A stretch of DNA of 64,000 bases, taken from contig CP004348.1 of the NCBI GenBank assembly GCA_000342265.1, positions 1,240,001-1,304,000 of the forward strand. Direction: 5' to 3'. Shown in pieces: positions 17,234 to 52,900 of this stretch; within the stretch, counting starts at the first letter, position 1; every line of letters starts with the position of its first letter. Position numbers and translations under genes: made by a program. Source of the stretch: a beta proteobacterium CB. Lineage in GTDB: Bacteria; Pseudomonadota; Gammaproteobacteria; Burkholderiales; Burkholderiaceae. The notes under the pieces were generated by a model. That model had not been told where the DNA came from. It saw nothing but the letters and a program-made list of their open reading frames with translations, and searched no databases.

Positions 17234-17311
<78 letters not shown>

Positions 17312-17392: not shown

Positions 17393-17427
17393 AGGGGTTG
17401 GACTTGTGTACTGAACATGCAGCCCTC

Positions 17428-17441
17428 CAGAGTCGACTCTG
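17428..17441. repeat. Perfect 14-bp palindrome
   Basis: CAGAGTCGACTCTG is a perfect palindrome without spacer, located 57 bases beyond the end of the DUF499 gene and between it and the left arm site. It could be a protein-binding site of the excision machinery. Its function is unknown and chance is possible. Confidence 0.3.
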
Positions 17442-17497
17442 ATTTACCAGTGCAACCCTTACATTTAGGCAATTAAAACGGCGTAAATCTAGCTGCT

Positions 17498-20400
17498 TCA
17501 ATCTTTTTCAAAACCTTGGTCGGAAAACTTCAGTGTTCTGCAGTTTTCAGTTATGGTTCTAACAACATTATCCGGGACACCTTCCGGCACCTCCGCGTGA
17601 ATCTCTAACGTCACTCTTACATCCGAACCAATTAAACCGGATAAATGAGCAATAACCTCATCAGCAATCTTGCCAGCATCTCGCCCCACTCTAGTTGGAT
17701 CCAAAACTACTGAGCCATGAAATCTGCTGGGTTTTTTCATGGGTACGGGCTGACCTGGAATGGAAGTCCCATCCTCACCAGAAGTTTGGCTCCCGGAACC
17801 TCCCGCACCACCACCGGCTATGTCATCTACTTGAGCTACACGCTCGGCATCAAGTTGATCACTAGCGACGCCCGACTTAACCAGCAAAGATGTCCCATGA
17901 GGGTCAATTGAGTCGATAATTTGACCTCCGCGAAGTCCCTTATACCGACCGGCAGTCACATCAAAATCATCGGCCAAGGCGAAGCCATCATTTGCCCATG
18001 TTACTAAGCGGACACCCTCCCGAATCGATTCAAGAAGAACTTGAGAATCCCTCAGCCTTGGGAGATAAACATAACGAGCAAAATCCTCGACAAGCTGCTT
18101 AACAGAAACATGATTGCCATCGCGCCACAGCAAACGATCCAATTCCATCCTAAGTCGCGAAGGTGCAAAACTTGCCAACAACAACTCATCAGTACGCAGC
18201 TTTTTGCTTGCACGCACTGCAAGCTTATCCGATCCAGAAAGGCGGATTGACTCCCAGGCAAGAGGGGCTTGGGCATCGGGCTGAACGGGAACAAGCAGCC
18301 ACTGGTATGTCTCGGGAATTCTTGCAATCACAGTTGCCTCAGCCCCAGTCTTTTGGGTTTGAGCCTGGGTTACCTGGTAGGGGGTGAGATCAAGCTGTTT
18401 TTCATCCCTAAGAATTGAATCCCAAGCAAGATATTTACGAGTTGCCTCCTCCAGATCTTGCAGTCGCGTTTTATCTGCGGCCAAGAAAACCAAGCTATTT
18501 CTATAAATACGTGGTGCATTTCCCCTATTTTCAAGAATGGTCTTAGCAACAACTTCAGCAGGACTATTACTCTCCTTGCTGTATGGGTGGCCAATGCCTA
18601 AGACCACCAACCTTGTATCAAAGTCATCTGGAACATCAGCACCACCCTGCGGAATTGGGTGCACACGACTAAAGTCACCGGCAAACGCTAAATCTTTACG
18701 TATTCTCTGTTCAATTTCATTGGCAATCTTTTCCGGCTCCCTCTTTAATTGATCCGTACGATCTTCGGCCAGCTTAGTAACGGTGGGTTGAGTTGAATAC
18801 CAATAGTGAGGGCCATCTTGATAAAGATAGGTAGCTGCACCAGCCATGCGGCGAAGCGCATCGCCAAAAATAGCTGGAGACTCACCGGGCATCACACAGC
18901 CTAATTTAATGCGCCTGTCCTCTATGCCTTTATGGGCGGCAGCCGTAGTTGGCGCTGAACCCATATAGATAGTTCTCGCAACGCGACGGCAAGCTGAAAC
19001 CTTACCCAAATTTGGAAGCTCACTATCAATTTTCAGTGGCAAGGAATTAGGGCCATCAACATCCTTCTCAATAACTGGCACCCAGTTATCAGTGAGGTAT
19101 CTGGTTAGCTCCGATTGAACGCGCGGATCATCAATTGAAACGTTGGCCGGAAGAATTAAGGGATTGCGATCACCCTTTTCCCAAAGACTATGAATTACAG
19201 CAGCCATTAAACGGAGTACGCCTCGTGTGCGCTGAAACTTAACTAATGTTGACCAATCTGTATAAAGTCGATCAAAGATTTCTGGATGAATTGGGTAGGC
19301 TGCTTTAATACGCTGCTCATATTCTGACTCGTGACACTCTGGCGGAAACTCTGCCTGTTGATTGCGATATAGATCTGAGAATGCTCTGGCTATCACATCC
19401 CTATCTTTAAATTGAGCTGGATCTGATAATGGCTTAAATAAGCGACGCCTAACAATTTCAAAACCCTCTTCAGCCGTCGCGGGTCTCCAAGAAGACTCAA
19501 CACGCCCCACAACATTGCTTAAACGATCAAGAGCTTCGCGACCTCGGGTTCCGCCAACCTCAATATCTTCAGATTGAGCATTTTGTGACCCAGAGGTATC
19601 AGACGCAGGAAGACTAATTACAAGCAAAGTATTTTTGGCTAACTTTGCAGATTCAGTGAGAACCTGTGCAAATGTAAATTGTGTCTCAAACCCACCGGCC
19701 GGCAAGTCACTTTGATCGTGAAGCTGTCTTGCATATGCTACCCACTCATCAATGAGGATGACAGAAGGCCCATACTCATTGAATAATTCACGCAAAACAT
19801 CTCCGGGACTTGTTGCGTTCTCATCATCAGCCTGGATCCGCTTGTAAGCCTCAGCGCCGCCCAATTGCCACGCCAACTCACCCCAAAGTGTTCTAACTAC
19901 AGTACCATCAGGCTTTACCGAGGGATTACTTGGAGAAATTTTATTTCCAACTAAAACGATTCTTTTAGCTTTAGGAATCTTTGTTGTACCAGCCTCCTGC
20001 ATAACAAGATCAATACCAGGCAACTCAGTTGGGTTGGCGCCCGAAAAAAGATGGTACAAGGCCAACATCGAGTGAGTTTTACCACCACCAAAATTGGTTT
20101 GTAGTTGAACAACTGGATCGCCACCATCTGTAGTTAGTCTTCTAACTGCGCCGACAAGCATTTCTTTCAAGCTTGCCGTCAAATAAGTACGTCGGAAAAA
20201 TTCAACTGGATCTAAATACTCATCGGCACCCTCTCCCAAATGAACTTGCCATAAATCAGCAGCAAACTCGGCCTGTTGGTATCTTCCGCTAGCAACATCA
20301 TCATGAGGCATGACCACTTCACGCCATGGCTTAAGCGTAGAAGCAACACCGCTCTCGATGGCAATACCTGCTGTCTTACGTTTTTCACCACGCGCCTGCT

Positions 20401-20830
20401 CATCAAAACGGACGCGCAGCAACTCCATCCGCATTTTCTCCACATCATCAGCTTGAGAGGCTGAAATAGCAGTTAATAACCTTACTGATGAGTCTAGGGC
20501 ACGGTATGCATCGTCACTAGAAAAAGCTTCTTGGTGCGCCCACTTATTGCGAACCGCGATAATTTCATTAACCAAGCTACGATCGGTCTTACCTAGTACC
20601 TGACGGAAAACATCACTCCATTTCCTATCCATTACAACCAATAAAGCTGCAACGTCATTTATAGAGTCACCCTTGCCTAAACCAAGGCGTGTATCAGATA
20701 GAGCATCCTTCATTTCAAAGCCATAACTTGTGCCATATTTAGCCTTAAATTCACGCTCAACAAATGGCACTAATCCCGTTTTTAATAGCTCGAGCGCCTT
20801 ACCAACACGCTCATGATTTGTAATGGCCAT
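17498..20830 (-). CDS. DUF499 / BrxC-PglY-like ATPase with N-terminal Swt1-type HEPN domain
   Basis: This 1110-residue protein resembles the DUF499 (COG1483) AAA+ ATPases related to BrxC/PglY of BREX and Pgl systems. The ATPase core shows Walker A NFGGGKTH (residues 246-253) and Walker B VILIDEWVAY (from 357). The N-terminal region up to about residue 130 resembles the Swt1-type HEPN domain and carries RNKWAH (94-99), which fits the RX4-6H motif of HEPN ribonucleases. The C-terminal part has a Gly/Ser-rich linker (AGGGAGGSGSQTSGEDG, around 1015) and a small terminal domain. It is the third gene of a leftward operon, 3 bases after the methylase. Probable role: the NTP-driven component of a phage-defence or modification complex, possibly with an RNase effector. 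The latter is inference. Confidence 0.82.
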   Translation of the reverse strand: MAITNHERVGKALELLKTGLVPFVEREFKAKYGTSYGFEMKDALSDTRLGLGKGDSINDVAALLVVMDRKWSDVFRQVLGKTDRSLVNEIIAVRNKWAHQEAFSSDDAYRALDSSVRLLTAISASQADDVEKMRMELLRVRFDEQARGEKRKTAGIAIESGVASTLKPWREVVMPHDDVASGRYQQAEFAADLWQVHLGEGADEYLDPVEFFRRTYLTASLKEMLVGAVRRLTTDGGDPVVQLQTNFGGGKTHSMLALYHLFSGANPTELPGIDLVMQEAGTTKIPKAKRIVLVGNKISPSNPSVKPDGTVVRTLWGELAWQLGGAEAYKRIQADDENATSPGDVLRELFNEYGPSVILIDEWVAYARQLHDQSDLPAGGFETQFTFAQVLTESAKLAKNTLLVISLPASDTSGSQNAQSEDIEVGGTRGREALDRLSNVVGRVESSWRPATAEEGFEIVRRRLFKPLSDPAQFKDRDVIARAFSDLYRNQQAEFPPECHESEYEQRIKAAYPIHPEIFDRLYTDWSTLVKFQRTRGVLRLMAAVIHSLWEKGDRNPLILPANVSIDDPRVQSELTRYLTDNWVPVIEKDVDGPNSLPLKIDSELPNLGKVSACRRVARTIYMGSAPTTAAAHKGIEDRRIKLGCVMPGESPAIFGDALRRMAGAATYLYQDGPHYWYSTQPTVTKLAEDRTDQLKREPEKIANEIEQRIRKDLAFAGDFSRVHPIPQGGADVPDDFDTRLVVLGIGHPYSKESNSPAEVVAKTILENRGNAPRIYRNSLVFLAADKTRLQDLEEATRKYLAWDSILRDEKQLDLTPYQVTQAQTQKTGAEATVIARIPETYQWLLVPVQPDAQAPLAWESIRLSGSDKLAVRASKKLRTDELLLASFAPSRLRMELDRLLWRDGNHVSVKQLVEDFARYVYLPRLRDSQVLLESIREGVRLVTWANDGFALADDFDVTAGRYKGLRGGQIIDSIDPHGTSLLVKSGVASDQLDAERVAQVDDIAGGGAGGSGSQTSGEDGTSIPGQPVPMKKPSRFHGSVVLDPTRVGRDAGKIADEVIAHLSGLIGSDVRVTLEIHAEVPEGVPDNVVRTITENCRTLKFSDQGFEKD

Positions 20831-20833
20831 TAC

Positions 20834-23725
20834 TTATTCCTGATTAAATAGATCATTGGTTTCTGGGACCACATCTGATATAGATTTCGCCAGCCGACTT
20901 ATCTCTGGCCAGCTTTGAACTAAGCCGTTATATGCCATTGCATCATTGGCACGTTTTTTTCTTTCACATAGCGTATAAAGACGGTAGCAGAGCTCCCTTG
21001 CCACCTCCGCATGATCACCCAGCCCCTTCACTAATGTAGCTGCAGCACCCTCTCCACTTACCTCAAGAGATCGAATAAGTTGATGGACTATTTCCCATGC
21101 AGTCAATCTTTTATCTGCGAGCGGATCCCACCCAGAATCTAATTCTGCCGGCTTTAGCAATCTAACTTTTCCCGCGCCAGAAACCAGAATCTTCGCCTCA
21201 ACTAAACCCGCAACAGATATGTTTTTTGAGGTTGATAGCTGCTCTGCGACACCATAATCACCCTCACTAAATCCGAACTGCTCAAACCAAGTTAATGCCC
21301 ATCGACTATCCGCATCAAAATCCCCCTCTTGTTCAGCCAAGGCCTCATCAAGCGTGTCATTAATTAACTCAAGTGCCGCCTTTACAGACAAAGCATTACC
21401 ATCGCTATCTAGAACTTTTTTATATCGAGTAAAAACCGCCATACCAGGTCCTATAGCGGCCTGAGCTAAGTCGACTGGAGCAATATTGCCTTCCTGAAGA
21501 TGCGCCAATGCTAGTGGCATCTCAGCCTTCAGGGCAGTAACAAATTCTCTTCTGGTTACTGTATTTGACACCTCACTGCTTGGTCTACAAACAAGAACAA
21601 TGCTTGAAGCAAGAGCGTTTGTGCCAGCCGAAATCATGCGGCTTGCCATTTCCGTTCTCATGGGCCATGTGCCAGTAATAGATAAACCAGCATCGATTAC
21701 GGCCTGAAGAAATGTCTCCCATCCCGTGCTGGATGTTCCAGAATCATCTTTCGTCTCTGCCTGCTTAAAGGCGTAATAAATTGTTATTGGAAAGAATGGA
21801 TGGGATAACTCGGATAGTCGACTCATGGCATGAGTCATGCCATCTAAAAAAAATAATTCTGCACCTTCTTTACTTCCATGACGATAGGGTGTTGCAACAA
21901 GTTCTTCTGACTTTGGAACGGTCATTGTTGTAAACAACTCAGGGAGAATAGTTTTAATTGAGCGCCTCAGCCATACATAAAAGAAATCAGAAAGATCAGC
22001 GTACCCAATGTTGTCATAATAAGGTGGATCAGTAGAAATCACCTTATTTTTACTGATCTCTTGCGTTTGTGCATCTGCCTGATAAACCGAAGCCGGCAAA
22101 ACATGTCCAGCAAAACTTTTATTAAAACTTTTACAAACATTTTCAACCGAGGCAATGAAAGAGCCGGTGCTGTCACATAACAGATTTGTTTCCGAGAAAT
22201 CCCAAACCATAGGAATTGCATGCCTGCCAAATAACTGTTGCGGCACCTGCGCTTTTGATTCCCATCTTGAAAGTGAGTTACTCCAATCAGTGGTTCTACT
22301 TAGGGCCAGCGCTAAATATACGGCAATTGCTTCGCTATATGCAATGGCACCATCCCCACCCTTTTCAAGACCAATATCACTATTATTGAAACCATTCAGC
22401 AATGCATCCAATCTAACCCGCTCTTTTATTTCCACTATCAAATCTGAAAATGTAGCTAGACCCATCAATTGTCTGGAGGTAAATAAATCTCTCCATCTCT
22501 CCATTCCATATTCTTGAACCCTAAAGCCTAAGGCCTTTATTGGCAACTCAGTATCAGGAACATCACTCAAGACTTCACATTGCGCCACAGCCTCAATTTC
22601 ATCCGTTGGGGATAGGTAGAGCCTGGATCTATCGCCCTCAACCACAACAGCCATTAGTCGAGATCCAATCCTCCCCTCCTTGGCTTCTGATCGCAAGTAC
22701 TCAAAAGTCATTGGCGTACCAGATAAGAGGCAGAGAAAACTACTTCCGCTAGTACCTGACTTAGTCCCTCGTGTCGTAGCAGCCTGATCTAGCGGCTTGC
22801 CAGTTTTTACTGTGAACTTATATTTACTGCCGCTAATTTCAGGCTCTACGTAATTTTCTTTGCCGGCCTTGGTCGAAAGCATAAATGTAGAGGCGAGTGG
22901 GACATCTACATTTGCAAATGCGGGATTTGGGCTTTTAGCTGTTCTGGCCCATAGCCATGAAATTACAGTTAACTCTCTCCCAACATAACCCTTTAGATCA
23001 TCCCTAAGCTCTGCCATCTCCTTGGTTATTTTTACTTTTGGGTATAAATGTCCAAGCCTCTCTGATGCTTTGGCACGCATTAATTCACCATAAAATCGGA
23101 TGTCCTCAACTAAGCCAGAAGGTCCCGAGCAATCCCTTGATATAAGATCATTGGAACTATGGAAAGTAGGGTTAACTGGCCTTAGATTTGCGAATTTTTG
23201 AGGGAATTCAATTAAGGCTTTATTAATCAACACCGCTACAGGATTTAAGTCGCTCGCAAAGCTTCGCAATCCAAGCCGCTGCCCTTCTAAAGGCAATGCT
23301 CCGCCGCCAGCAAAAGGATCATGAAATGCAGGCAAAATATTTCGGTCAAATAATTCTTTTGCCTTTGGATCATCAGCATTTTTTGCACAAGCATATCTCC
23401 AGCTCTGCCATATTTCATCACTTGCAGCCTTAAGCACGGTCCTATTATTGGTATTTTCCCATTTAACGAGTTCAGATATTAATTTAAATAGGCGTTTGCG
23501 CTCTTTATCCTGGCACTTAATGGTTGGAAAAAGATCAGGATGCTGAGATGGATCATCGACCATTTGAGCAAAAATAACAGCTCTTGCCGAAGCAAGAGGC
23601 CTTCGGGCCCACCATAAATGTACGCTAGTTGGCTTTCCCACTTTTACTAATTTTTCATATGTTGCCGCCTGGTTAATAAGTTCAAGCGGCAAAGCAACTT
23701 CAATTAATTTTTTCGTATATTTCAC
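20834..23725 (-). CDS. DUF1156-type DNA adenine methyltransferase (COG1743-like)
   Basis: This 963-residue protein opens with the characteristic DUF1156 region (KKLIEVALPLELINQA, then VHLWWARRPLASARAV). It carries SAM-binding motif I DPFAGGGALPLE (136-147) with SDLNPVAVLINKA, and catalytic motif IV DPPYYDN (566-572), typical of amino-methyltransferases making m6A or m4C. The family often has a Zn-ribbon in the middle. Here the matching region reads CLLSGTPMTFEYLR (around 332), with the second cysteine replaced by serine, so zinc binding looks lost. It overlaps the upstream helicase gene by 4 bases and is followed by the DUF499 ATPase gene. Likely role: epigenetic marking of host DNA for a defence system. 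The recognition sequence is unknown. Confidence 0.86.
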   Translation of the reverse strand: MKYTKKLIEVALPLELINQAATYEKLVKVGKPTSVHLWWARRPLASARAVIFAQMVDDPSQHPDLFPTIKCQDKERKRLFKLISELVKWENTNNRTVLKAASDEIWQSWRYACAKNADDPKAKELFDRNILPAFHDPFAGGGALPLEGQRLGLRSFASDLNPVAVLINKALIEFPQKFANLRPVNPTFHSSNDLISRDCSGPSGLVEDIRFYGELMRAKASERLGHLYPKVKITKEMAELRDDLKGYVGRELTVISWLWARTAKSPNPAFANVDVPLASTFMLSTKAGKENYVEPEISGSKYKFTVKTGKPLDQAATTRGTKSGTSGSSFLCLLSGTPMTFEYLRSEAKEGRIGSRLMAVVVEGDRSRLYLSPTDEIEAVAQCEVLSDVPDTELPIKALGFRVQEYGMERWRDLFTSRQLMGLATFSDLIVEIKERVRLDALLNGFNNSDIGLEKGGDGAIAYSEAIAVYLALALSRTTDWSNSLSRWESKAQVPQQLFGRHAIPMVWDFSETNLLCDSTGSFIASVENVCKSFNKSFAGHVLPASVYQADAQTQEISKNKVISTDPPYYDNIGYADLSDFFYVWLRRSIKTILPELFTTMTVPKSEELVATPYRHGSKEGAELFFLDGMTHAMSRLSELSHPFFPITIYYAFKQAETKDDSGTSSTGWETFLQAVIDAGLSITGTWPMRTEMASRMISAGTNALASSIVLVCRPSSEVSNTVTRREFVTALKAEMPLALAHLQEGNIAPVDLAQAAIGPGMAVFTRYKKVLDSDGNALSVKAALELINDTLDEALAEQEGDFDADSRWALTWFEQFGFSEGDYGVAEQLSTSKNISVAGLVEAKILVSGAGKVRLLKPAELDSGWDPLADKRLTAWEIVHQLIRSLEVSGEGAAATLVKGLGDHAEVARELCYRLYTLCERKKRANDAMAYNGLVQSWPEISRLAKSISDVVPETNDLFNQE

Positions 23726-26700
23726 GATGGCTTTTCTGCTCTAGAAAGTAATTCCGGGAAATCATAATTTACGCTAGTGACGCCGAAATCTGGCTCACGC
23801 TGAAACGGTTGGCGCAAATAGTGGGTGTTATGAGTCTCATCCCCGGTGAATTCAACAATGGCAAGTATGAAATCATCGGGCTTATTTAGAGAGTATAAAA
23901 TTTCGTTACGCGTTACTGTTATTGTAGGCGCGCCCGCAACACGACCCTTTACCTCAATAAACCGAAGTTTTCCTGTTCCAGGAACCCGACTTTCAATATC
24001 GTAGCCCAGCTTTTCAAATTCTCGGTCAACCGGCTCATATCCAAGCTTATGCTCTACATCCATAATCACAGCGCGAGCTCGTGCAGCACTAATTTGAGTA
24101 TCTACAGGATTATTTAAAGCGGGGTCAGCATCCTCACCCATCATCTTTCTCACCAATCCCATTGGAATTACTAGCATCCCGCCAATCACTACCGGGGGCA
24201 ATGGAGAGATCTGAGCTTCTTGCTTTAGCTCTTCAAGTCTTTTTTGTAGTCTTGCCTGCAGATTATCGGCGCGCTTTAATGCCTCAGCAGAATTAAGTTT
24301 GGCATTTGGCTTTCCAGCTTGCTCCTCCGACTTTAGATCCTGCGCCCTATGATCCCAGAAAGTAATTTCTTTAACCAAGCGATCCTTAACAGCGGCTTCC
24401 GTTTTGGCAATATGGTCCAGCTTATGGCCACGAACTTCTGCAAGATGTTCTGGAACTACGCTTGATATTGCATAACCTTGCGCTTTTTGCTCAAGCTCCT
24501 TATTAATCCATCCACATTCAGGCCGATCCAAAATTGACTCTGCACTTGGCTCATCGGGTCCAAGCGGACGATAGTCAAGATACGGCGCGTAATTAATATG
24601 CCTTATGTTGCCTTGTGCATCCTGCTCAACATAAAGCATTTTTTTGGATATAACTCTACGCTCACCCGTGCGCACTGTGCTGGCATCTTGGATTGAGTGC
24701 TCTAAATAAAATAAAACACGAGGCTCAATTCCTTCATCGCGTTCATCAACAAGAATGGTCCCTCTCTTCAGAAGATCTCGGTTGCGCTCTAGAGTTAAAT
24801 CAATCACAGAGTCTAGCAATGGATGTCCAGGACAAACAAATGCTGCCAATGGCTGACCTTGGGGTGCCACCAAGTTTTTATCAAAAGTAATACGCTCATA
24901 CCGAGGCAGAACAGGCTCGCCCAATCCAATGACCCTGTCGCGATTTTTAATGGGGCCAGGAACATGGGTAATTTCAAATCTACGAGGTTCGCGTGGTTTC
25001 ACCGTGCCACCAAGATTCTTAAAAGCCTCATAAAAGAAGGACTCTATATAGTGAGGTTGCAATCTTCTAGCATCTGCACGCTCCATATCCTCGCGAATAC
25101 GCTGCACATTTGATACATCCATTACATCACGCGCCAATGCGCCCTCATCCAGAAGATCTTCGAGATGACCTCTGTCTAGCGCATGATCAAGCACAGTTGT
25201 TAGATATGCCTTAACTTCAGGTTTTTCACCATGACGAATAGCCTCAATCAAAAGATCTCTTAGTGACTTACCCTCAAACTGTAGCTTCCCAAGCACATCA
25301 AAAACCTGCCCACCAAGGGCTTGCCTGGCCTGCTCCAACTTTTCCAATAATTTTCTATAAACATCACCTTCACGCGTGTCATCCGCTACAAGATTCCACA
25401 AATGACAGACTTCAGTTTGGCCAATACGATGAATACGACCAAAGCGCTGCTCTAATCTATTGGGGTTCCACGGTAAGTCATAGTTCACCATGAGGTGAGC
25501 GCGCTGCAGGTTAATACCCTCGCCCGCAGCGTCCGTTGCCAACAACACCTGAACTCGCGGATCATGCTTGAATGACTCTTGCACCTTTAGGCGCTCTTCA
25601 CGGCCAATACCACCGTGAATTTGTACAACAGCATCTTTGCGACCTAAAAGCGTGGTAATCCGCTGCTCAAGGTAATTCAATGTATCCCGATGTTCGGTAA
25701 AGATCACCAATTTTTGATGGGGTGACGAGCTAATGGCTGGAATTTCTTTGCCATCGGCTTGAGTGGCCGCTTGAAGCCTAGATACTGCACCCCCTACTGT
25801 AAAAACTTCTGACAACAAACCAGCTAATTCGCGCCATTTTGTGTCTGTTCCACTTTGTTTTACTGACAAGGCTTGCGCCTCTAAAACTTTCAGAGTCTCT
25901 ATCTCAATACGTAACTCTGCAATTGAGCGAGAGGCTGTTGCCTGGTCCAAAATTTCTTCTTCTGCAATTTCAACTTCGACTTCTGGGGCTTCGTCTAAAT
26001 CCTCTAAATCTTCAACATCTAAATCACGAATGGAGATCGAGCTAGCAATAGGAGCCTGTCCACCTCTTTGTAAAATCTCTAACTCTCTTAGCCTGCTGTC
26101 TAATCTCTCTCTTCTTCTATTTAATGATCTATATATGGCCTCAGGAGAAGATGCCAAACGTCGTTGCAAAATAGTCAACGCAAAGCCTACGGTTCCAGCA
26201 CGCTTATCATTTTCCAGTGCTTCTGCGCGGTTAAATTCCTCCCGAACATAGTCAGTCACCATTGTGTACAGATGCTCTTCTGCAGGAGAAAGTTTGTAAG
26301 GGATGGTATGCGCTATGCGCTGCGGGAATAGCGGAGTTCCATCAAACTTTAATAAATTTTCTTTGACCATTCGTCGCATTAAGTCGGTGGCGTCGACAGT
26401 GTGAACGCCATCTCTATAGCGACCCTCAAATCGATCACCATCAAGCAAGGCCATAAAAAGCTGGAAATCGGCTTCTTTTCCGTTATGTGGCGTTGCAGAC
26501 ATTAGCAAGAAATGTCTTGTTGTTGATGAAAGCATTTGCCCTAAACGATAGCGCTTGGTGTACTTAGTTTCGCCACCAAAAACAGTGGCGGACATTTTAT
26601 GCGCCTCATCACATACCACCAAATCCCAGCGACAATCTGGAGCCTCTAACTTAGCTTGCACATCTTCATTGCGAGCAAGCTTATCTAGGCGCGCAATCAC

Positions 26701-27300
26701 GAGATTGGTTTCAATAAACCAATTCCCAGTTCGGGCGGCCTCTAATTTATCGTTGGTCAGAATTTCAAAAGAAAGATTAAAACGACGATAAAGCTCGTCC
26801 TGCCACTGCTCTGCAAGGCTGCCAGGGCAAACAATTAAGCAACGCTGTAAATCGCCTCTAGCAATAAGCTCCTTGATTAGCAAGCCAGCCATAATGGTTT
26901 TACCAGCACCCGGATCATCTGCTAATAAAAATCTTAATGGTTGGCGAGGCAGCATTGCCTCATAAACAGCGGTAATCTGATGAGGAAGTGGATCGACTAA
27001 AGATGTGTGTACCGCAAGAACTGGATCGAATAAATGAGCCAGACGAATTCTTTGAGCCTCTGATACCAGCCGGAATAATGCGCCATCCCCATCAAAGCTC
27101 CAGGGCCTTCCTTGTTCCACCAGCTCAATGCGCGGCTCATCATGACGATATAAAAGCTCATTAGCCACTTTTCCACTTGCAGTTTTATAAGTTAATTCAA
27201 GCGCTTCCGATCCAAACCACTGAACGCTCACTACCGTTACCAAAGCATCCGGAATAATTCCTCGAATACTTGCATGAACTTGGAGGTCTTCGAGCTTCAA
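23722..27300 (-). CDS. SNF2-type helicase with C-terminal DUF3883-like domain
   Basis: This 1192-residue superfamily 2 protein has Walker A DDPGAGKT (128-135), DEAH box VVCDEAHKMSA (DEAH at 231-234) and SAT at 268-270. The C-terminal helicase lobe holds LLATDAAGEGINLQRA and QRFGRIHRIGQ. The last ~110 residues (YDIESRVPGTGKLRFIEVKGR) resemble DUF3883, with an E-x-K pattern like that of PD-(D/E)xK nuclease folds. The furthest upstream start is TTG at 27298-27300; no in-frame ATG lies close by. It heads the operon helicase-methylase-ATPase with ATGA coupling to the methylase. Such helicases occur with COG1743 methylases and COG1483 ATPases in predicted defence islands. Probable role: translocation on foreign DNA. 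Confidence 0.87.
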   Translation of the reverse strand: MKLEDLQVHASIRGIIPDALVTVVSVQWFGSEALELTYKTASGKVANELLYRHDEPRIELVEQGRPWSFDGDGALFRLVSEAQRIRLAHLFDPVLAVHTSLVDPLPHQITAVYEAMLPRQPLRFLLADDPGAGKTIMAGLLIKELIARGDLQRCLIVCPGSLAEQWQDELYRRFNLSFEILTNDKLEAARTGNWFIETNLVIARLDKLARNEDVQAKLEAPDCRWDLVVCDEAHKMSATVFGGETKYTKRYRLGQMLSSTTRHFLLMSATPHNGKEADFQLFMALLDGDRFEGRYRDGVHTVDATDLMRRMVKENLLKFDGTPLFPQRIAHTIPYKLSPAEEHLYTMVTDYVREEFNRAEALENDKRAGTVGFALTILQRRLASSPEAIYRSLNRRRERLDSRLRELEILQRGGQAPIASSISIRDLDVEDLEDLDEAPEVEVEIAEEEILDQATASRSIAELRIEIETLKVLEAQALSVKQSGTDTKWRELAGLLSEVFTVGGAVSRLQAATQADGKEIPAISSSPHQKLVIFTEHRDTLNYLEQRITTLLGRKDAVVQIHGGIGREERLKVQESFKHDPRVQVLLATDAAGEGINLQRAHLMVNYDLPWNPNRLEQRFGRIHRIGQTEVCHLWNLVADDTREGDVYRKLLEKLEQARQALGGQVFDVLGKLQFEGKSLRDLLIEAIRHGEKPEVKAYLTTVLDHALDRGHLEDLLDEGALARDVMDVSNVQRIREDMERADARRLQPHYIESFFYEAFKNLGGTVKPREPRRFEITHVPGPIKNRDRVIGLGEPVLPRYERITFDKNLVAPQGQPLAAFVCPGHPLLDSVIDLTLERNRDLLKRGTILVDERDEGIEPRVLFYLEHSIQDASTVRTGERRVISKKMLYVEQDAQGNIRHINYAPYLDYRPLGPDEPSAESILDRPECGWINKELEQKAQGYAISSVVPEHLAEVRGHKLDHIAKTEAAVKDRLVKEITFWDHRAQDLKSEEQAGKPNAKLNSAEALKRADNLQARLQKRLEELKQEAQISPLPPVVIGGMLVIPMGLVRKMMGEDADPALNNPVDTQISAARARAVIMDVEHKLGYEPVDREFEKLGYDIESRVPGTGKLRFIEVKGRVAGAPTITVTRNEILYSLNKPDDFILAIVEFTGDETHNTHYLRQPFQREPDFGVTSVNYDFPELLSRAEKPS

Positions 27301-27639
27301 TTGTCGGTCCGATATATTAAAAATGTGCAGTTAAATTACTTACGTAGATATTTGAAATAACAAAGAAAAGTATAGCCGTAGCCCATACATCCTTATATTT
27401 TTTGAAAATACTCTATAGCGATCCAGAAGCCTTAAAGATTCAAGCGTTGACAGCGCTTAGCATCCTTTTCTGCAAATAAATCATACGACTCCGAAAATCC
27501 AAGCCGCCCAAGACCATGCCAATGCCAAAAGTAATAAAACTAATGAATGAATGGCTCAAATGATGAGCTCAAAGATATTTTTCATAGAAAGCATTATATT
27601 AACAGTTATTATTTACAGTATTAGTGTTAATATATCGCC
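27301..27639. other. Divergent intergenic region between helicase operon and merR
   Basis: The 339-bp AT-rich stretch has no convincing ORF. It must hold the promoter of the leftward defence operon and that of the rightward merR-VWA operon. The right end contains the large operator described at 27602-27634 and an upstream partner half TATATTAACA, at about 27595-27604, complementary to TGTTAATATA at 27625-27634. No clear -35/-10 pair was identified for the leftward operon. Confidence 0.6.
27602..27634. promoter_or_regulatory. Operator of the MerR regulator (autoregulatory site)
   Basis: The site contains ATTTACAG-TATTA-GTGTTAATATA and ends 5 bases before the merR start codon. Over 24 bases (27611-27634) it matches the site at 40629-40652 with only two differences. 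Position and palindromic character fit autoregulation by the MerR protein encoded next to it. Binding itself is an inference. Confidence 0.6.
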
Positions 27640-28047
27640 ATGGAAGACAAAAAATACACTTTTGAAGAGCTCTGTAGCCTAACCGGCGTCAGTTCACGAA
27701 CCCTACGGTATTACATCCAAATTGGTCTGGTTGATAAACCAATAGGACAAACCCGGGGAGCTCACTATCTGAGCCTTCACATTGAGAAGATCCTTCGTAT
27801 CAAGCAATTAACTGAAATGGGTATTTCGCTTGAGCGAATACGTGAAGTGTTATCTGGCTCGCCAATGCCACTGCCTGAGCGAGCCAAAAAGCCGGGAGAT
27901 ATTTCGGTACGCACTCACCTATGGGTAGGAGAAGGTATTGAACTGGAAGTCTCAGCTGAAACAGCAGGTTTGAGCCCTGAGCAATTACGTCAATTCTTAA
28001 AAGGCGTGATGCAGGTATATGAACAAGTTAAAAAGGATGCTCAATGA
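27640..28047 (+). CDS. MerR-family transcriptional regulator
   Basis: The 135-residue protein has an N-terminal MerR winged helix (YTFEELCSLTGVSSRTLRYY, followed by IQIGLVDKP and the wing RGAHYLSLHIEKILRIKQL). A short C-terminal helical tail (LSPEQLRQFLKGVMQVYEQV) should form the dimer coil. No cysteine pattern for metal or redox sensing is present, so the signal is unknown. It overlaps the VIT-VWA gene by 4 bases (ATGA), so the two are one unit. An operator lies just upstream and a close copy lies upstream of the secreted-protein gene at 40736. Confidence 0.9.
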   Translation: MEDKKYTFEELCSLTGVSSRTLRYYIQIGLVDKPIGQTRGAHYLSLHIEKILRIKQLTEMGISLERIREVLSGSPMPLPERAKKPGDISVRTHLWVGEGIELEVSAETAGLSPEQLRQFLKGVMQVYEQVKKDAQ

Positions 28048-30371
28048 TTGTCATTGAAAAGGTAAAAAACATATTTTCTAGCAGTAATAAGAAATTAGCC
28101 CTGCAATCAGTCTGCGCAACTGGTGTAGCCAATGGTTTATTGCTCGATTTGACCATACGCCAGCACTATAAAAACAACACCAACAAAACTTTGGAGGTTG
28201 TTTACTCATTTCCTATGGCTTGGGGCGCCACCTTCATGGGAATGCAGGCAGAGATTAGCGGTCAACGCTTGGTCGGCACGGTGATTGAAAAAGCGAAAGC
28301 AACCGAACAATATGAAAAGGCGATAGCTGATGGCGATACTCCCATCATGATTGAAAAGAATTCTGATGGTCTATATACCGCCAATCTGGGAAACCTTAAA
28401 CCCAATGAAGATGTAGTTATTGAATATAGCTATGCGCAACTGCTCAAATATGAGCAAGGCTCAATGCGCATCGGTATTCCTACGGTCATCGCTCCGCGCT
28501 ATGGCGATGCCAAAAAAGGGGGTATTGAAGATCACCACAGTACTGAGTCTGATTTCTTAACTGAATATCCTTTTTCTCTGTCCCTTCAATTAACCGGCGG
28601 CCTAGAAAAAGCCACAGCTGAATGCCCATCACATCAAGTAAAAGTGACCAAACAAGATGAGGGCTTATTGGTCTCGATTGAACGTGAAGCTTTTTTAGAT
28701 CGCGACTTCATCCTCAATTTAACTGGCTTGCAAAACCAATCCTTTTATATTGTCACACCAGATAAACAACTCGGACCCGATGGTTGCACTGTCTTAGCAA
28801 GTTTTTGCCCACCAACCATCGACAATCAAAAAGATAGCTCACTAGATCTGAAGATCTTGGTTGATTGTTCAGGCTCCATGGAGGGTGATAGCATTCAATC
28901 GGCAAAACGCGCCCTGCATCACGTATTGAGCCACTTAACTGCAGAAGATCGATTTAGTTACTCTAAGTTTGGTAATCATACCAACCACCTATTTTCTAAA
29001 GTTAAGCCAGCCGACCAATTTCATATCTCTGCCGCCTCTTTATTGATAGAGAACACAAATGCCGATATGGGCGGCACTGAAGTAGAAGCGGCATTGCAAT
29101 CGACTTTCGATCTAATGGGTGCCCAAGGTATGGCAGATGTTCTTCTCATTACCGATGGTGAAGTTTGGAGCACCAACGAAACTATTGCCGCAGCGAAGGA
29201 AAGTGGGCATCGCATCTTTGCTGTAGGCGTAGGCTCGGCGCCAGCAGATACCCTCTTAAAAGAATTGGCTGAAATGTCAGGCGGCGCATGTGAGCTAATC
29301 TCGCCCAAAGAAGATATTGAGAAAGCGATCGTGCGCATGTTCCACCGGATTCGCCAGCCTAGAGCATGCAATATTGAAATTGACTGGGGTCACCCAGAAC
29401 AACCAGAATGGACTGTTGGTACCAATACCGCCATCTTTAGTGAGAATACAACTCATGTATTTGCTGGGTTTAAATCCACCCCATCAAAGCCAGCCTTGCT
29501 AAGTTACCAATTAGGCAATAGCTCACAACGCACAGGCATTGGGGCTTCTCAGATCACACACTCCAAATCTCATAACCTACCTCGTTTGGCAGCGGCGCAA
29601 AGAATCAAAACTGCGCCCGAAGGAGATCAAATTGCTTTGGCCCTTAGCTATCAACTCATTACAGAGAAGACCAATTGTTTATTGGTTCATATTCGCGCCG
29701 AAGACCAAAAGGCAACTGAATTTCCGGAGCTGATGACCATAGCGCAGATGCAAGCGGCTGGATGGGGCGGCGCGGGTTCAGTCCTAGATGGATCACCTCA
29801 TATTCTATTTAGCAAGAGCAAATCATTTACCTCCAAATGCGCTACGCTTAATCTCTCTAGCGCCACCTATGCTTCGTATGACATGCCAAGGGTATTTAGA
29901 TCAAGCCCAATCACAGGGGATTCACCCATCCCATTACAAGAATCTATAGGTGGAGATCCAGATTATTACGACATCCCGGCATTCCTCAGAAAGCAGGCAA
30001 CCGAGTCAGAACAGGCTGCTCCAAAAATCAAGTACCTTGATCCTACTGATGTTATTGAGATAGCTAATACCGTTATTTTAAGCAAAGCACTTTTTGCTGA
30101 CTTTGTTAAAACGATGGACCAGTCCTTATTTGATGTTGAGGTATCAGAGGTATTTAATAGTTGCTTGAAGTTTTTATCTCAAGAGCAATTGTGGACTACC
30201 GTTCTAGCGTGGTTACTCCTCCATCTAGAAGAGTCTGGTAATTGGAATGAGAATACTAAGAGTGTTATTCAAGAACTTACCAATGAGATGGATGCTATTG
30301 AGTTAGGTAAAGCATTGCGAGTTTTCAATACCAAGATGAACAATATTGGTATGCATGAATGGCTCTCTTAA
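28044..30371 (+). CDS. VIT and von Willebrand factor A domain protein
   Basis: The 775-residue protein has an N-terminal VIT domain (about 15-140, VVYSFPMAWGATFMGMQAEI and ANLGNLKPNEDVVIEYSY) and a VWA domain (about 268-440). The metal site is intact: DCSGS at 274-278, threonine T345 in MGGTEVEAA, and aspartate D371 in LLITDGEVW. The remainder is a beta-rich region and a C-terminal helical domain. No signal peptide or membrane segment is visible, so it is probably cytoplasmic. It is coupled to the MerR gene. VWA proteins with intact sites usually bind partner proteins, but the partner is not evident here. Similar MerR/VIT-VWA pairs occur in bacteria with no settled function. Confidence 0.88.
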   Translation: MIVIEKVKNIFSSSNKKLALQSVCATGVANGLLLDLTIRQHYKNNTNKTLEVVYSFPMAWGATFMGMQAEISGQRLVGTVIEKAKATEQYEKAIADGDTPIMIEKNSDGLYTANLGNLKPNEDVVIEYSYAQLLKYEQGSMRIGIPTVIAPRYGDAKKGGIEDHHSTESDFLTEYPFSLSLQLTGGLEKATAECPSHQVKVTKQDEGLLVSIEREAFLDRDFILNLTGLQNQSFYIVTPDKQLGPDGCTVLASFCPPTIDNQKDSSLDLKILVDCSGSMEGDSIQSAKRALHHVLSHLTAEDRFSYSKFGNHTNHLFSKVKPADQFHISAASLLIENTNADMGGTEVEAALQSTFDLMGAQGMADVLLITDGEVWSTNETIAAAKESGHRIFAVGVGSAPADTLLKELAEMSGGACELISPKEDIEKAIVRMFHRIRQPRACNIEIDWGHPEQPEWTVGTNTAIFSENTTHVFAGFKSTPSKPALLSYQLGNSSQRTGIGASQITHSKSHNLPRLAAAQRIKTAPEGDQIALALSYQLITEKTNCLLVHIRAEDQKATEFPELMTIAQMQAAGWGGAGSVLDGSPHILFSKSKSFTSKCATLNLSSATYASYDMPRVFRSSPITGDSPIPLQESIGGDPDYYDIPAFLRKQATESEQAAPKIKYLDPTDVIEIANTVILSKALFADFVKTMDQSLFDVEVSEVFNSCLKFLSQEQLWTTVLAWLLLHLEESGNWNENTKSVIQELTNEMDAIELGKALRVFNTKMNNIGMHEWLS

Positions 30372-32325: not shown

Positions 32326-33294
32326 ATGAGTAGTGTGGAGCGGCTGCACCGTATTAAGTACATGATCCAGGTTCGCAAATGCGTACCTCGTCAAGATTTT
32401 CTTGATGAACTCGAAATCTCTCCCGCGACCTTTAAACGCGACTTGGAATATCTGCGTGATCGCATGAATGCCTCGATCATCTATGACCGATCAGAGGGTG
32501 GTTATAAGTTTGAACAAGCTAGCGTATCTGAGAAGATCGAATTACCAGGACTGTGGTTTTCTGAAAAGGAAGTCACCGCCTTAGCCCTCATGCAACATCT
32601 ACTCTCATCCCAAGATAAGGGCGGTCTTATTGGCCCCCATATTGAGCCCTTGATGTCAATCATTGATGGGATCTTAGGCCAGTCATCCGCTACCTCTAAA
32701 GAGCTGCGTAAACGCATTAAGGTCTTTGGAATGGCCTCACGCAAAAGCTCGATTGAAAACTTTGAAGAAATTGGTAGCGCCCTACTCAAACGTGAGCGCC
32801 TACACATTGCGTATTACTCCAAGGGCACCAATCAAACCACAGAGCGCGAGATCTCCCCTCAGCGCCTCATTCATTATCGGGATAATTGGTATCTAGATGC
32901 CTACTGCCATCTACGTAATGAACTACGTAGCTTTGCAGTTGATGGAATTAAATCAGCCGCATTAACCAACAAAAAAACGGATGACATTTCCGAAAAAGAG
33001 CTTCATGAAAACTTTGCCGAAAGTTATGGCATCTTCTCCGGAAAGGCAACCCAAAGAGCAAAGCTACGGTTTTCCCCAGAGCGCGCCCGCTGGGTTTCTG
33101 GAGAGCAGTGGCATGGGCAACAAACTGGCAAATTTGACGACAAAGGCTTTTACATCTTGGAGTTTGATTACAACCAAGATCCCGAGCTAGTCATGGATAT
33201 TTTGAAACATGGCTCTGAAGTTGAGGTTTTGGCACCAGCAAGCCTTAAAACCAAGGTGGTTAATGAACTCAAAAAGGCGCTGTCAAAATATTAG
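32326..33294 (+). CDS. WYL-domain transcriptional regulator (YafY/BrxR/CapW type), copy 1
   Basis: The 322-residue protein has an N-terminal winged HTH (ERLHRIKYMIQ through ATFKRDLEYLRDRM), a WYL domain (about 150-215, ISPQRLIHYRDNWYLDAYCH) and a C-terminal WCX-like segment (LRFSPERARWVSGEQWHGQQ). This architecture is shared with BrxR and CapW, repressors of phage-defence operons that respond to a ligand through the WYL domain. It is flanked on both sides by identical palindromes, indicating autoregulation and control of the adjacent repeat-protein gene. The second WYL gene at 35758 is a clear paralogue (shared SPQRL-YRDNWYLDA and RARWVS motifs). Confidence 0.9.
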   Translation: MSSVERLHRIKYMIQVRKCVPRQDFLDELEISPATFKRDLEYLRDRMNASIIYDRSEGGYKFEQASVSEKIELPGLWFSEKEVTALALMQHLLSSQDKGGLIGPHIEPLMSIIDGILGQSSATSKELRKRIKVFGMASRKSSIENFEEIGSALLKRERLHIAYYSKGTNQTTEREISPQRLIHYRDNWYLDAYCHLRNELRSFAVDGIKSAALTNKKTDDISEKELHENFAESYGIFSGKATQRAKLRFSPERARWVSGEQWHGQQTGKFDDKGFYILEFDYNQDPELVMDILKHGSEVEVLAPASLKTKVVNELKKALSKY

Positions 33295-33868: not shown

Positions 33869-35608
33869 TTAAAGATCAAAGCTTCTTACCTGACCATTTT
33901 TAACGCTTTGATCCATGAAAAGATTAATCAAGTCCGCAAGACGTTGGCGGCGATACTCTAAGAACTTGCCAAAATTGCCGATCTCACGCATTTCCAACCC
34001 TAGTGGTATGGCTTGTTTTAATAACACATCACCACCCTGGGTATCCACGATTTCCTGGAAGTAGATATTAGGCGCTTTATTAGAAATATTACGATTGGCT
34101 TTGCCGCTAATAAAAGCCATATTGGAGATCTCATTAATATCAGCGCCATCAAAACCAGCTTTCTGGAGTAAAGATTTCGGAAAAATATGGTGATACTCAA
34201 TTAAATGGCTATGACCCTGATGAAACAGAGAGAGTCCCAGGCCTGTATTCCAATCTACTGCATTGGAATATTTCAGCGCCAGATAACTTAGCGAGAATAA
34301 GAAACTGCGCTGTCCGCGTCCAGCCAAATCCCGAGGTTCAACATTAATACGTCCAAAGCGTTGCTCAAGCATTTGCACCAAATCACCAAAATTTCCGCCA
34401 TCAAGCAATACGCGTAAATCCGCATCCAAGCTAGATTCACTTGATCCTGAGAAATGCCCTTTAATACCGCCAGCAAAGAGCCATTGGAGCATCTGACTTG
34501 AGTCACTGGGGGCTAACTTATAGCCCTTCAGATCACCATACACTGCAATTGGAATTAAATAATATGGCGATGCAAGCAAGGACATGCCTTCAATGCCGGC
34601 ATTTTGCTTGAGAAAATTAATAGCGTAATCGATTCCATTCTTGGTTTTCTCCCAACTACTCTGAAGCTTTGCCAGCGGAATCGTGCTTACCGTTCTAAAG
34701 CGAGATTGTCCGGTAGCAAAGACTACCAGCAACCGAACTAACAATCCCGTATCGATATAAAAATTGCTTTGCTCTTCACAGCTATTTGAAAAATCCTCAA
34801 AGGTAGTAAGCGACCCAGGCCACTTAGCGGTAATTTGCGCTAAAGCCAAATCTGATCCCTTAAGCTTGGCGCCTAATGAGTTCACCCGCACGAAGATTTC
34901 TGCCACCTCTTCATAAGAGAGGTTGCGCGGCAAAATTTCCATGGTGTAAAGATAATCTTTGATGGCTCGCAGGCGATTTAAACGATTCAAATAGACCGCA
35001 AACTGCGGATCATTTGGTGAGCTCACCAAATCCTTGACCAGCTCCCAATCATTTTGGCTAGCAAAGACTTTAGAAACACTCACCCAATTCGGGCGATTTA
35101 ATATTTGACTAGATGCAACCGCAAAGACACGACCATTCAATCTCTGTAAAACATTCTCACCACGCTCATCATCCGATCCCTCATCGACTTCCGCGCCCTC
35201 CTCACTGCCATTAGCATCATCTTCCACCTCGAGAAGATCTACAGGAGGCCCTTCAGGATGATTTAAGTTAAAAGCAATATCAATTGGCCTTTGGCGGTTG
35301 CGAACCTCAATAGGCTTTCCTGAAAGCACCGCAGTCAATGATGTTAAACGCTGCTGACCGTCAAGCAATAGCTTCTGAGTGGCAAATGCATTGGAATTTT
35401 GCAGAACCTGTAAATCTCTGGGCTGCTGTTCAGCATCAGTTTCCCAAACAAGAATTGTCCCCGATGGGTAGCCACGATATAGAGAATCTAATAAGTCCCG
35501 GACTCGAGTGGATGTCCAAACATAGCGACGCTGCATCTCAGGGAGTCGCAATTCTCCGCGCTCAATCATTTGCACTAAATCTAAGACACGGGTTTCCTGC
35601 TTTGGCAT
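33869..35608 (-). CDS. DUF262-DUF1524 protein, GmrSD-like (type IV restriction family)
   Basis: The 579-residue protein joins an N-terminal DUF262 domain with the ParB/sulfiredoxin-like motif DGQQRLTSL (DGQQR at 83-87) to a C-terminal HNH-type DUF1524 region with HHIFPKSLL (about 473) and downstream Asn residues (ISNMAFISGKANRNISNKAP). This is the layout of GmrSD and BrxU nucleases that cut modified phage DNA using NTP. A long acidic stretch (EVEDDANGSEEGAEVDEGSD) interrupts the N-terminal part near residue 130. It is followed on the same strand by nothing close and lies between two WYL regulators, suggesting regulated defence. GmrSD-like activity is inferred from motifs. Confidence 0.82.
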   Translation of the reverse strand: MPKQETRVLDLVQMIERGELRLPEMQRRYVWTSTRVRDLLDSLYRGYPSGTILVWETDAEQQPRDLQVLQNSNAFATQKLLLDGQQRLTSLTAVLSGKPIEVRNRQRPIDIAFNLNHPEGPPVDLLEVEDDANGSEEGAEVDEGSDDERGENVLQRLNGRVFAVASSQILNRPNWVSVSKVFASQNDWELVKDLVSSPNDPQFAVYLNRLNRLRAIKDYLYTMEILPRNLSYEEVAEIFVRVNSLGAKLKGSDLALAQITAKWPGSLTTFEDFSNSCEEQSNFYIDTGLLVRLLVVFATGQSRFRTVSTIPLAKLQSSWEKTKNGIDYAINFLKQNAGIEGMSLLASPYYLIPIAVYGDLKGYKLAPSDSSQMLQWLFAGGIKGHFSGSSESSLDADLRVLLDGGNFGDLVQMLEQRFGRINVEPRDLAGRGQRSFLFSLSYLALKYSNAVDWNTGLGLSLFHQGHSHLIEYHHIFPKSLLQKAGFDGADINEISNMAFISGKANRNISNKAPNIYFQEIVDTQGGDVLLKQAIPLGLEMREIGNFGKFLEYRRQRLADLINLFMDQSVKNGQVRSFDL

Positions 35609-40526: not shown

Positions 40527-40620
40527 CGGCTATAGCCACTAAGCCCTTTTTTGGTCAAAAGTAGTTCCCCTTCTACCCTAGCCCCAATTACCCCCTATTT
40601 TTTGAGTCTTGTTTATTTTT

Positions 40621-40657
40621 ACAGTTATATTTACACAATTAGTGTTAATATAACTGT
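40621..40657. promoter_or_regulatory. 37-bp near-perfect inverted repeat (MerR-type operator)
   Basis: Two 16-bp arms (40621-40636, ACAGTTATATTTACAC, and 40642-40657) flank a 5-bp spacer AATTA and match at 15 of 16 positions. The core 24 bases (40629-40652) differ from the merR operator at 27611-27634 at only two positions. The site lies 78 bases before the secreted-protein gene at 40736. Confidence 0.65.
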
Positions 40658-40735
40658 ATTCAGAACTTAGGCTTAATTCCGACAATATTTACTAGGTAAC
40701 GGCAATGGGATCTGGACTCAAATTAAGGGATCACC

Positions 40736-45982: not shown

Positions 45983-45991
45983 GTGCAATTC

Positions 45992-51328: not shown

Positions 51329-52684
51329 TTAATTTGTACCGCCAACCACTTTAAGTAGCTGTGAGCCATCCTGAGGCTTAAATTCAATACCTGCCTGCTC
51401 CAAAATCCAAGCCTCATATTTGGTATGCCAAATAGCCAACAATTCAATAGGGCGTGATATGTAGTGCTTCTCAGCGGTTGCACTGGGCTTATGCCCTTTA
51501 ATTTCAGCAACAACCCCAATCGGCATTTCTACCCACTCAGCCAATGAAGCAAAAGTGCGGCGTAATCCATGAATGGTTACAGGTGGCAACTGTGCAAGAC
51601 TTAAAGCGCGATGATGAGAAACGCTTGGGTCAGCGTATCTTCCATCCTTAGATAGGGGGCTACTAAACACCCATTCATTACGCCTTGGTAAATTCTCAAT
51701 AAGGCTTTTTAAATATGGAGTAAGAGGTATTTTTCTACCCTGCTCCTCCACCTTGTCTTTGAGCCACAAGGCATTCCATTGAAAATCAACATCAACCCAT
51801 TTCAGATTTGCCATTTCTTCCCGCCGCGCACCCGTCAAGATTACGGCCTGCAGGTAGACTTTAGCAACTTTGCTATTTAAGGAATTAACTGCTTTGAACC
51901 AAGGCTTTAACTGGGCGCGCTGCAATACATCGAAGCGCTTGTTTTTACGACTGGGCACTTCATCGCGCAACTCTTTGCCCTCTACTGCGTTCACATCAAT
52001 AATTTTTAGACACTCAGGCCGAATTGCACACCAACGCCAAAAAGCTCTAAACATTTCGAAACCTTGGCGAGCATTATTTGCCCTCGTTGCGGCTTCCTCT
52101 TTTTGCCAATCCTTTAGGACGTCGGCATTAATGTCAGCCATGCGCATAGACATGAGGGGATATAAAACACCTGCCTTAGTTTTTTCTTTACTGCGCTTTC
52201 TATTTTCGCCACCCGCCTGAGATAAATTCTCATGGTCTTTGAGGTGCCTCGCACCCCACTTCTTACCGCGTTCTATATGAGGGCGCGTCATCTTATCTTT
52301 TTGATACTCAAGATATTCATTCCAAACTTCACTAACCAAAAGCTCTTTGTTCTTTTCTTCGGCCTTCTTTGCCTGTGCCTGTTTTTCCTTGGCTTTGACA
52401 AGCTCTCTAGGGTCTATGCCTTGATCGGTTAATGCTTTGAGGCGGGTTGCCTCTGTTTGAGCTTGGCTAATTGTGTAGGTACGCGTATCACCTATGGTCA
52501 GTCGCGTGGGGGATAGGGCCCCACCTATTCTTGATTCAAAGATATAAGTCTTTTTCCCTGTTGCCGTAACTCTAAGCCCCAATGAGGGCGTTTTAGCATC
52601 CCAATGGAAGCTTTGTTGCTTGCCTTTTTCGCATTCAAAGCTATCTACCCTCCCAGCTGTGAAATTCACTTTTTTAGCCATCAT
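51329..52684 (-). CDS. Tyrosine integrase (P4/DUF4102 type)
   Basis: This 451-residue site-specific recombinase has an N-terminal DUF4102-like arm-binding domain (SLGLRVTATGKKTYIFESRI), a core-binding domain and a C-terminal catalytic domain. Catalytic residues are Arg 287 (TGARREEMANL), His372-x-x-Arg375 (IHGLRRTFASL), His 398 (IKGHKPSATA) and the nucleophile Tyr 408 (EKHYIS). It sits next to attR and transcribes away from it. A likely arm site at 52693-52716 lies 8 bases before its start, so it may be self-regulated. The matching tRNA-fMet repeats identify its att site. Confidence 0.95.
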   Translation of the reverse strand: MMAKKVNFTAGRVDSFECEKGKQQSFHWDAKTPSLGLRVTATGKKTYIFESRIGGALSPTRLTIGDTRTYTISQAQTEATRLKALTDQGIDPRELVKAKEKQAQAKKAEEKNKELLVSEVWNEYLEYQKDKMTRPHIERGKKWGARHLKDHENLSQAGGENRKRSKEKTKAGVLYPLMSMRMADINADVLKDWQKEEAATRANNARQGFEMFRAFWRWCAIRPECLKIIDVNAVEGKELRDEVPSRKNKRFDVLQRAQLKPWFKAVNSLNSKVAKVYLQAVILTGARREEMANLKWVDVDFQWNALWLKDKVEEQGRKIPLTPYLKSLIENLPRRNEWVFSSPLSKDGRYADPSVSHHRALSLAQLPPVTIHGLRRTFASLAEWVEMPIGVVAEIKGHKPSATAEKHYISRPIELLAIWHTKYEAWILEQAGIEFKPQDGSQLLKVVGGTN

Positions 52685-52838: not shown

Positions 52839-52888
<50 letters not shown>

Positions 52889-52900
52889 GATTTACGCTCT

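Follow-up and report, generated by a model that had tools for sequence, protein, structure and literature searches.

The window analysed here, 64,000 nucleotides (nt) of the genome of beta proteobacterium CB (assembly GCA_000342265.1, contig CP004348.1, positions 1,240,001 to 1,304,000), contains three long minus-strand open reading frames (ORFs), hmaA, hmaB, and hmaC in this order, that encode a helicase-nuclease, a methylase, and an ATPase (Table 1). The hmaA and hmaB frames overlap by 4 nt, and a gap of 3 bp separates hmaB from hmaC, pointing to a translationally coupled three-gene operon, as the initial annotation of this stretch had proposed. The TTG start assigned to hmaA is supported by the consensus of 20 HmaA rows, which has Met within 1–2 residues. 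We consider the operon to be a complete anti-phage system of the Hma, or Type-1 BREX-related (BR), family, of the HEPN-fused kind, with a probability of roughly 0.85.

Table 1. Features of the Hma locus and the surrounding tRNA-Met island (positions in the window)
Feature	Position	Strand	Remarks
hmaA, RapA-like SNF2 helicase with C-terminal nuclease domain	23722..27300	-	1192 aa, TTG start
NOV_C / DUF3883-type PD-(D/E)XK nuclease domain of HmaA, residues 1076-1156	23833..24075	-	Pfam PF13020, 65.8 bits
hmaB, DUF1156 + amino-methyltransferase (DPFAGGG, then DPPY)	20834..23725	-	963 aa, GTG start
hmaC, HEPN + DUF499 BrxC/ORC-like AAA+ ATPase	17498..20830	-	1110 aa, ATG start
Swt1-type HEPN domain of HmaC, residues 11-123	20462..20800	-	R-x4-H motif present; Pfam PF18731, 113 bits
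tRNA-Met (cat), integration site	17234..17310	+	ARAGORN
attL core, 50 bp	17262..17311	+	perfect direct repeat of 52839-52888; tRNA-Met 3' end
attR core, 50 bp	52839..52888	+	perfect direct repeat of 17262-17311
tyrosine integrase of island	51329..52684	-	Phage_integrase + Arm-DNA-bind_3; just inside attR
MerR-family regulator, divergent from hmaA	27640..28047	+	Pfam MerR_1, 60.7 bits
VIT + VWA protein, overlaps merR by 4 nt	28044..30371	+	Pfam VIT, 83 bits; VWA_3, 53 bits
46-bp block upstream of merR	27594..27639	+	nucleotide homology edge in 9/9 other genus copies (blastn edges 27594-27596, alignment)

All three proteins have matches to Hma profiles in PADLOC: HmaA to PDLC00659 (1689 bits, residues 1–1191), HmaB to PDLC00660 (1410 bits, residues 2–951), and HmaC to PDLC00662 (1170 bits, residues 165–1108). 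Pfam recognises SNF2-rel, Helicase_C, and NOV_C domains in HmaA, DUF1156 in HmaB, and HEPN_Swt1 and DUF499 in HmaC, in agreement with the initial description of an SNF2 helicase with a DUF3883-like end, a DUF1156 methylase, and a DUF499 protein, except that the N-terminal Swt1-like HEPN domain of the last had been overlooked. The same annotation regarded the grouping as having no established name, a view that we had to abandon, along with that of a new, unnamed system, given that PADLOC and the pertinent passages of three publications describe loci of this type. Hma (helicase, methylase, ATPase) was named by Payne et al. 2021, who give 1638 instances and 26 phyla (PMC8565338); in the classification of Rakesh and Krishnan 2026, it becomes Type-1 ‘BREX-Related’, with 2446 taxa, of which 1370 have the HEPN-DUF499 fusion (PMC12839542); and Anantharaman et al. 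2013 had already described a Swt1-family HEPN fused to DUF499 and adjoining SNF2-DUF3883 and restriction-modification (RM) components (PMC3710099). The operon is, in itself, an ordinary, intact HEPN-bearing representative of a known system with known partners.

We compared the operon with the best 80 of 253 matches to the window's own HmaB, which do not form an even sample of the family; HmaA was found in 71 of these loci, HmaB in all 80, and HmaC in 77, and the motif counts that follow refer to rows with letters at the respective position. HmaA appears to be a RapA-like helicase with an additional C-terminal PD-(D/E)XK nuclease, as is characteristic of Type-1 BR: its predicted structure retrieves RapA as all five best Foldseek chains (top E 6e-27), the helicase DEAH is kept in 61/61 relatives, and the nuclease motif in 68/68 (D) and 69/69 (ExK). 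An active C-terminal restriction endonuclease (REase) has been described for the Type-1 BR helicase in the corresponding section of PMC12839542, which cites Liu et al. 2024 as experimental work on the helicase-nuclease. In HmaC, the predicted structure (modelled without the first Met and, hence, numbered one below the protein) is closest to BrxC, indicating the BrxC-like AAA+ core expected of Type-1 BR, and the Walker A K and Walker B DE are each conserved in 76/76 rows; a comparison of HmaC with the PDB by sequence gave no match. A DPPY motif preceded by DPFAGGG is typical of amino-methyltransferases, acting on N6 of adenine or N4 of cytosine. The presence of DPPY in all 80 HmaB relatives and of both motifs in the window protein speaks for an enzyme of this class rather than a 5-methylcytosine (m5C) methyltransferase. 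With an intact PD-(D/E)XK-type motif in the helicase and an intact HEPN motif in the ATPase, that is, two predicted nucleases, the earlier suggestion of a minimal methylation-plus-ATPase system understated the operon.

That the operon might be a BREX or DISARM locus, canonical or degenerate, from which partners have disappeared seems highly improbable. The fold predicted for HmaC is indeed BrxC-like, and HmaA also matches the DrmD (413 bits) and BrxHI/II (315 bits) profiles, but its own-family profile scores 4–5 times higher. Across the genome of the organism, PglZ (PF08665) gave 0 matches (2/14 control genomes positive), as did MZB (PF09369), which we take to be the DUF1998 part of DrmB (8/14 control genomes positive). 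Because both are absent genome-wide, and this set of three genes is found repeatedly in different phyla, there is no sign of partner loss, and we rejected the remnant interpretation on the absence of these two families. Thus, the initial characterization as BREX-like yet PglZ-less was borne out, as was, with regard to MZB, the statement that this is not DISARM. Among the PADLOC matches listed for 19 window proteins, BrxA, BrxB, and BrxL do not occur, and DrmA appears only as a weaker cross-match of HmaA (223 bits), these families having had no individual genome-wide search. Type-2 BR, which is marked by DUF3780 and by a helicase that begins with an HKD/PLD nuclease, was ruled out by the far weaker scores of its PADLOC profiles at the operon (DUF499, 137 bits; DUF1156_MTase, 68 bits); Pfam detects no PLD/HKD domain in HmaA, and the operon consists of three genes only. 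The NCBIfam antiphage DUF499 and DUF1156 equivalogs likewise fall far below cut-off (165 vs 1200 bits and 107 vs 1000 bits, respectively).

The HEPN domain appears to delineate a lineage. In a tree built from 74 HmaC rows trimmed of the N-terminus, the distribution of HEPN (21 rows with, 53 without) corresponds to a single change (support 100), a number not reached in any of 500 shuffles, and on this ground repeated gain and loss of HEPN in the sample was rejected. The R and H of the R-x4-H motif are both kept in 20 of the 21 HEPN-bearing rows, the window included, the exception being L065. As far as the tree indicates, the HEPN form sampled here is one deep branch spanning several phyla and not a set of scattered fusions, a statement that we did not notice in the sections of PMC12839542 devoted to this family. 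The tree was built with a quick method, without bootstraps, from rows sampled by similarity to the window HmaB, and carries a long-branch warning between the HEPN and no-HEPN sides, that is, for this very split; 5/77 HmaC rows shorter than 800 aa, including the HEPN-bearing L009, were dropped, and 2/76 remaining rows (Type-2 BR of genomes G513 and G342) were excluded as their Walker-A pattern was unmatched. We also considered that HEPN-bearing Hma loci might be free of embedded genes. Intergenic gap counts, approximate as they derive from stop-to-stop ORFs, gave no support to this idea: gaps of at least 300 nt occur between hmaA and hmaB in 10/17 loci with HEPN and 23/41 without, and between hmaB and hmaC in 5/17 and 19/41, respectively.

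The initial annotation placed the operon directly beside attL, which the tRNA-Met gene, the perfect 50-bp repeat, and the integrase (Table 1) corroborate; 186 bp separate the hmaC stop from the end of the attL repeat. The islands of genomes G408 and G412 carry integrase homologues with 83% identity (over the 200 residues seen) and 86% identity, respectively. Near the tRNA (within ~1.1 kb), two other congeneric genomes match not the island but the right flank of the window: G426 from 53274 onward, and G381 over 52839-52937 and then 55152-55859. A full-length HmaB relative was found in 0/150 other congeneric genomes searched, with weak partial matches only, in three. On this comparison, the Hma operon was thus gained with, or into, the integrated island. 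Small insertions bounded by the same att repeat occur at the same tRNA-Met in G428 and G382 (L156 and L157; ~6.4 kb, with integrase-related DNA, and 4.9 kb, respectively), so that integration at this site is recurrent in the genus.

Within the island, the operon occupies what behaves, by nucleotide homology, as an exchangeable slot (window 17393-27593) between the att site and a fixed pair of genes transcribed divergently from hmaA, which encode a MerR-family regulator and a VIT/VWA protein. The evidence comes from four genomes (this one and those represented by L143, L145, and L147), each with a different defense operon in this place. On the att side, homology to the window ends at 17392 (G513, G408) or 17359 (G412). 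On the merR side, it extends to the edge at 27594-27596 with 97% identity over 5.7 kb in G513 and 93% over 2.9 kb in G408, so that for these two genomes the alignments place a real junction there; in more distant copies, the edge may only mark the conserved block upstream of merR. The tRNA-Met slot holds a full Type-2 BR system in G513 (DUF499 1125, DUF3780 216, DUF1156_MTase 1384, PLD_Helicase 1340 bits), Zorya I in G408 (ZorA 623, ZorB 255, ZorC 297, ZorD 1194), and a type III RM system in G412 (608, 826).

In the genus, 8 of the 151 genomes searched, the window included, have strong VIT matches, at 10 places in total (134/151 genomes gave matches at E <= 1e-3; those beyond the 10 places, short and at most 32 bits, were not counted). 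At 6 of the 10, the divergent neighbor is a defense or RM operon recognised by PADLOC, each of a different kind; besides the four slots, these are G386 (L148), where the pair adjoins PDC-S37 (1042) and the tRNA-Met match is far away, and a second site in G408 (L152), with a type IIG RM enzyme and specificity subunit (560, 167). The 4 places that do not fit this pattern are in G411 (transposase), G434 (DUF1810, then the contig end), G406, and a third G408 copy, in tandem and behind an outer-membrane gene. The divergent neighbors in G406 are genes without assigned function followed by Hsp70, a restriction-type helicase, and a GHKL ATPase; this cluster (L149:10521-19516), which also shows a weak zinc-finger match, is possibly an undescribed defense system, and a protein resembling its first gene is encoded in G434 (L150:9979-10521).

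Several other observations concern the island. A second copy of the ~46-bp block lies at window 40609-40659 with no merR-VIT behind it, and at the matching place in G408 (L146), before the same downstream genes, the pair is complete, implying either the loss of a pair in the window or the gain of one in G408. An Mrr-type restriction endonuclease (45062-45988; Mrr_cat 85 bits, PDC-S02) is 99% identical in the G412 island, which carries the type III RM system, and might be a methyl-directed nuclease beside exchangeable methylases. A GmrSD_N protein at 33869-35608, 6.5 kb outside the Hma genes, matches HEC-05 in PADLOC (160 bits), a family listed among ‘Hma-embedded candidates’ in the relevant part of PMC12111858; similar proteins are within or near Hma in 7/80 related loci. 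Two WYL-domain regulators (32326-33294, 35758-36738) are conserved in the G513 and G408 islands, and in L164, L199, and L207 a related WYL gene is located no more than ~5 kb from the VIT gene.

The fixed pair could itself belong to the functional unit, as a regulator or sensor that switches on whichever divergent defense operon adjoins it, which we consider unlikely; more generally, it might be a defense-linked control or sensing module, held constant while unrelated divergent operons change and governing or assisting whichever is present, an idea that we keep as a faint lead because the evidence is mixed. The six defense-associated places in the genus are in favor, and 3 of 5 further VIT genes from a class sample (369 genomes, E <= 1e-60; VIT gene in 5 further genomes) adjoin Hma, Hma-like, or Zorya genes: in G247, VIT directly precedes Hma, with HmaA 71% identical and no MerR seen beside VIT; in G342, it is divergent from Hma-like genes; and in G060, it directly precedes Zorya. 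Of the 17 matching plasmid records, two were examined, in one of which a single small gene separates merR from a type I methyltransferase. Against such a role, 4 of the 10 genus places do not fit, and no defense neighbors were seen at the VIT genes of G345 and G314. The VIT gene is found in 0/80 Hma loci (flanks of up to 10 kb, many shorter), with one weak MerR match (21 bits). In an order sample (18 other genomes, 19 places, 2 of them unparsed), no named defense neighbor was seen, and PADLOC run on 8 proteins from 6 places gave one partial match to an IetA-like ATPase (150 bits). Furthermore, the conserved 46-bp block is merR's own upstream region only, the upstream DNA of the divergent operons being unrelated between genomes. 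In all three samples, neighbor genes were picked with a greedy ORF script; L201 and L205 gave no VIT gene and were left out, and G810 (L200) is apparently the same as the examined Massilia plasmid, so that the two should be counted once. The VIT gene was found in no phage records. Identification of the window's MerR as a MADS regulator was set aside: PADLOC gave it a weak mad1 match (30 bits), and a literature search for MADS gave unrelated papers; a search for a link between VIT/VWA-MerR and defense gave nothing relevant apart from a Pseudomonas aeruginosa hotspot paper (PMC10250203), although other reports of such a link may exist.

On the basis of the protein families and the published model, which in the passages on Type-1 BR fits the anatomy of the window operon (PMC12839542), the system would probably work as follows. 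HmaB would methylate adenines at a specific site, marking host DNA; HmaC, as a BrxC/ORC-like AAA+ ATPase, would assemble on DNA and help to recognise unmarked invading DNA; and HmaA, a RapA-like SNF2 translocase with a PD-(D/E)XK nuclease, would move along the invader and cut it. If cutting fails, the N-terminal HEPN RNase of HmaC would provide a second, cell-sacrificing layer. Three points weigh against this interpretation: the HEPN suicide layer is, where PMC12839542 discusses it, a proposal and not a result; the passage of PMC8565338 on HmaB names it an m5C methyltransferase, in conflict with the DPPY motif; and the structure predicted for HmaA is of low confidence overall (mean predicted local distance difference test score 70.5, predicted template modeling score 0.50), which means that the HmaA domain order rests mainly on sequence.

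Alternatively, the operon might act mainly by abortive infection, with HmaC sensing phage DNA or a stalled HmaA and firing the HEPN RNase, and HmaB methylation just restraining self-activation. The absence of HEPN loss across the deep clade, together with the near-complete retention of its R-x4-H motif, suggests that this domain is more than an optional extra in its lineage. However, the HmaA nuclease motif is equally well kept, and the majority of the HmaC tree rows have no HEPN at all; such a predominantly suicidal mode of action appears rather unlikely. Restriction by HmaA, backed by HEPN, is the account that we favor.

These findings remove the false lead of an unnamed PglZ-less system and assign the locus to a widely distributed family, the mechanism of which has for the most part been inferred; the locus can serve as a representative of the HEPN-bearing Hma lineage. 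The slot beside the fixed MerR-VIT/VWA pair is the sole aspect to reach beyond annotation, and defense hotspots between fixed flanks are already known as a kind (PMC10250203). With an att site on one side and a constant pair of genes on the other, the slot is a convenient natural experiment on the swapping of defense modules by islands, and offers a route to harvesting candidate systems, such as the Hsp70/helicase/GHKL cluster of G406.

Compared with Hma as defined in PADLOC and PMC8565338, the window operon has the same three genes, order, and domains, with end-to-end profile matches, but its HmaC carries an extra N-terminal HEPN domain that lies outside the PADLOC HmaC model. It shares with the HEPN-fused Type-1 BR variant the HEPN-DUF499 ATPase, the DUF1156 methyltransferase, and the RapA-like SNF2 helicase with a C-terminal REase, and we found no difference from that variant as presented in the pertinent sections of PMC12839542, setting aside the C-terminal RRM/ferredoxin-like domain reported there for Type-1 BR DUF499 proteins. 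The HEPN (Ava_2192)-DUF499 neighborhood of PMC3710099 likewise combines a HEPN-DUF499 AAA+ protein with SNF2-DUF3883 and RM components, but is presented, in the passage concerned, as a neighborhood without a system name. BREX resembles the operon in the BrxC-like core predicted for HmaC and the RapA-like HmaA, and differs in that the operon has three genes only, in a genome without PglZ. Finally, at cDHS1 of P. aeruginosa, as described in the relevant part of PMC10250203, different defense systems occur between fixed flanks that include a merR gene, much as in the window, whereas the slot described here belongs to an island at a tRNA-Met gene and is flanked by the att site and the mobile MerR-VIT/VWA pair rather than by core genes.

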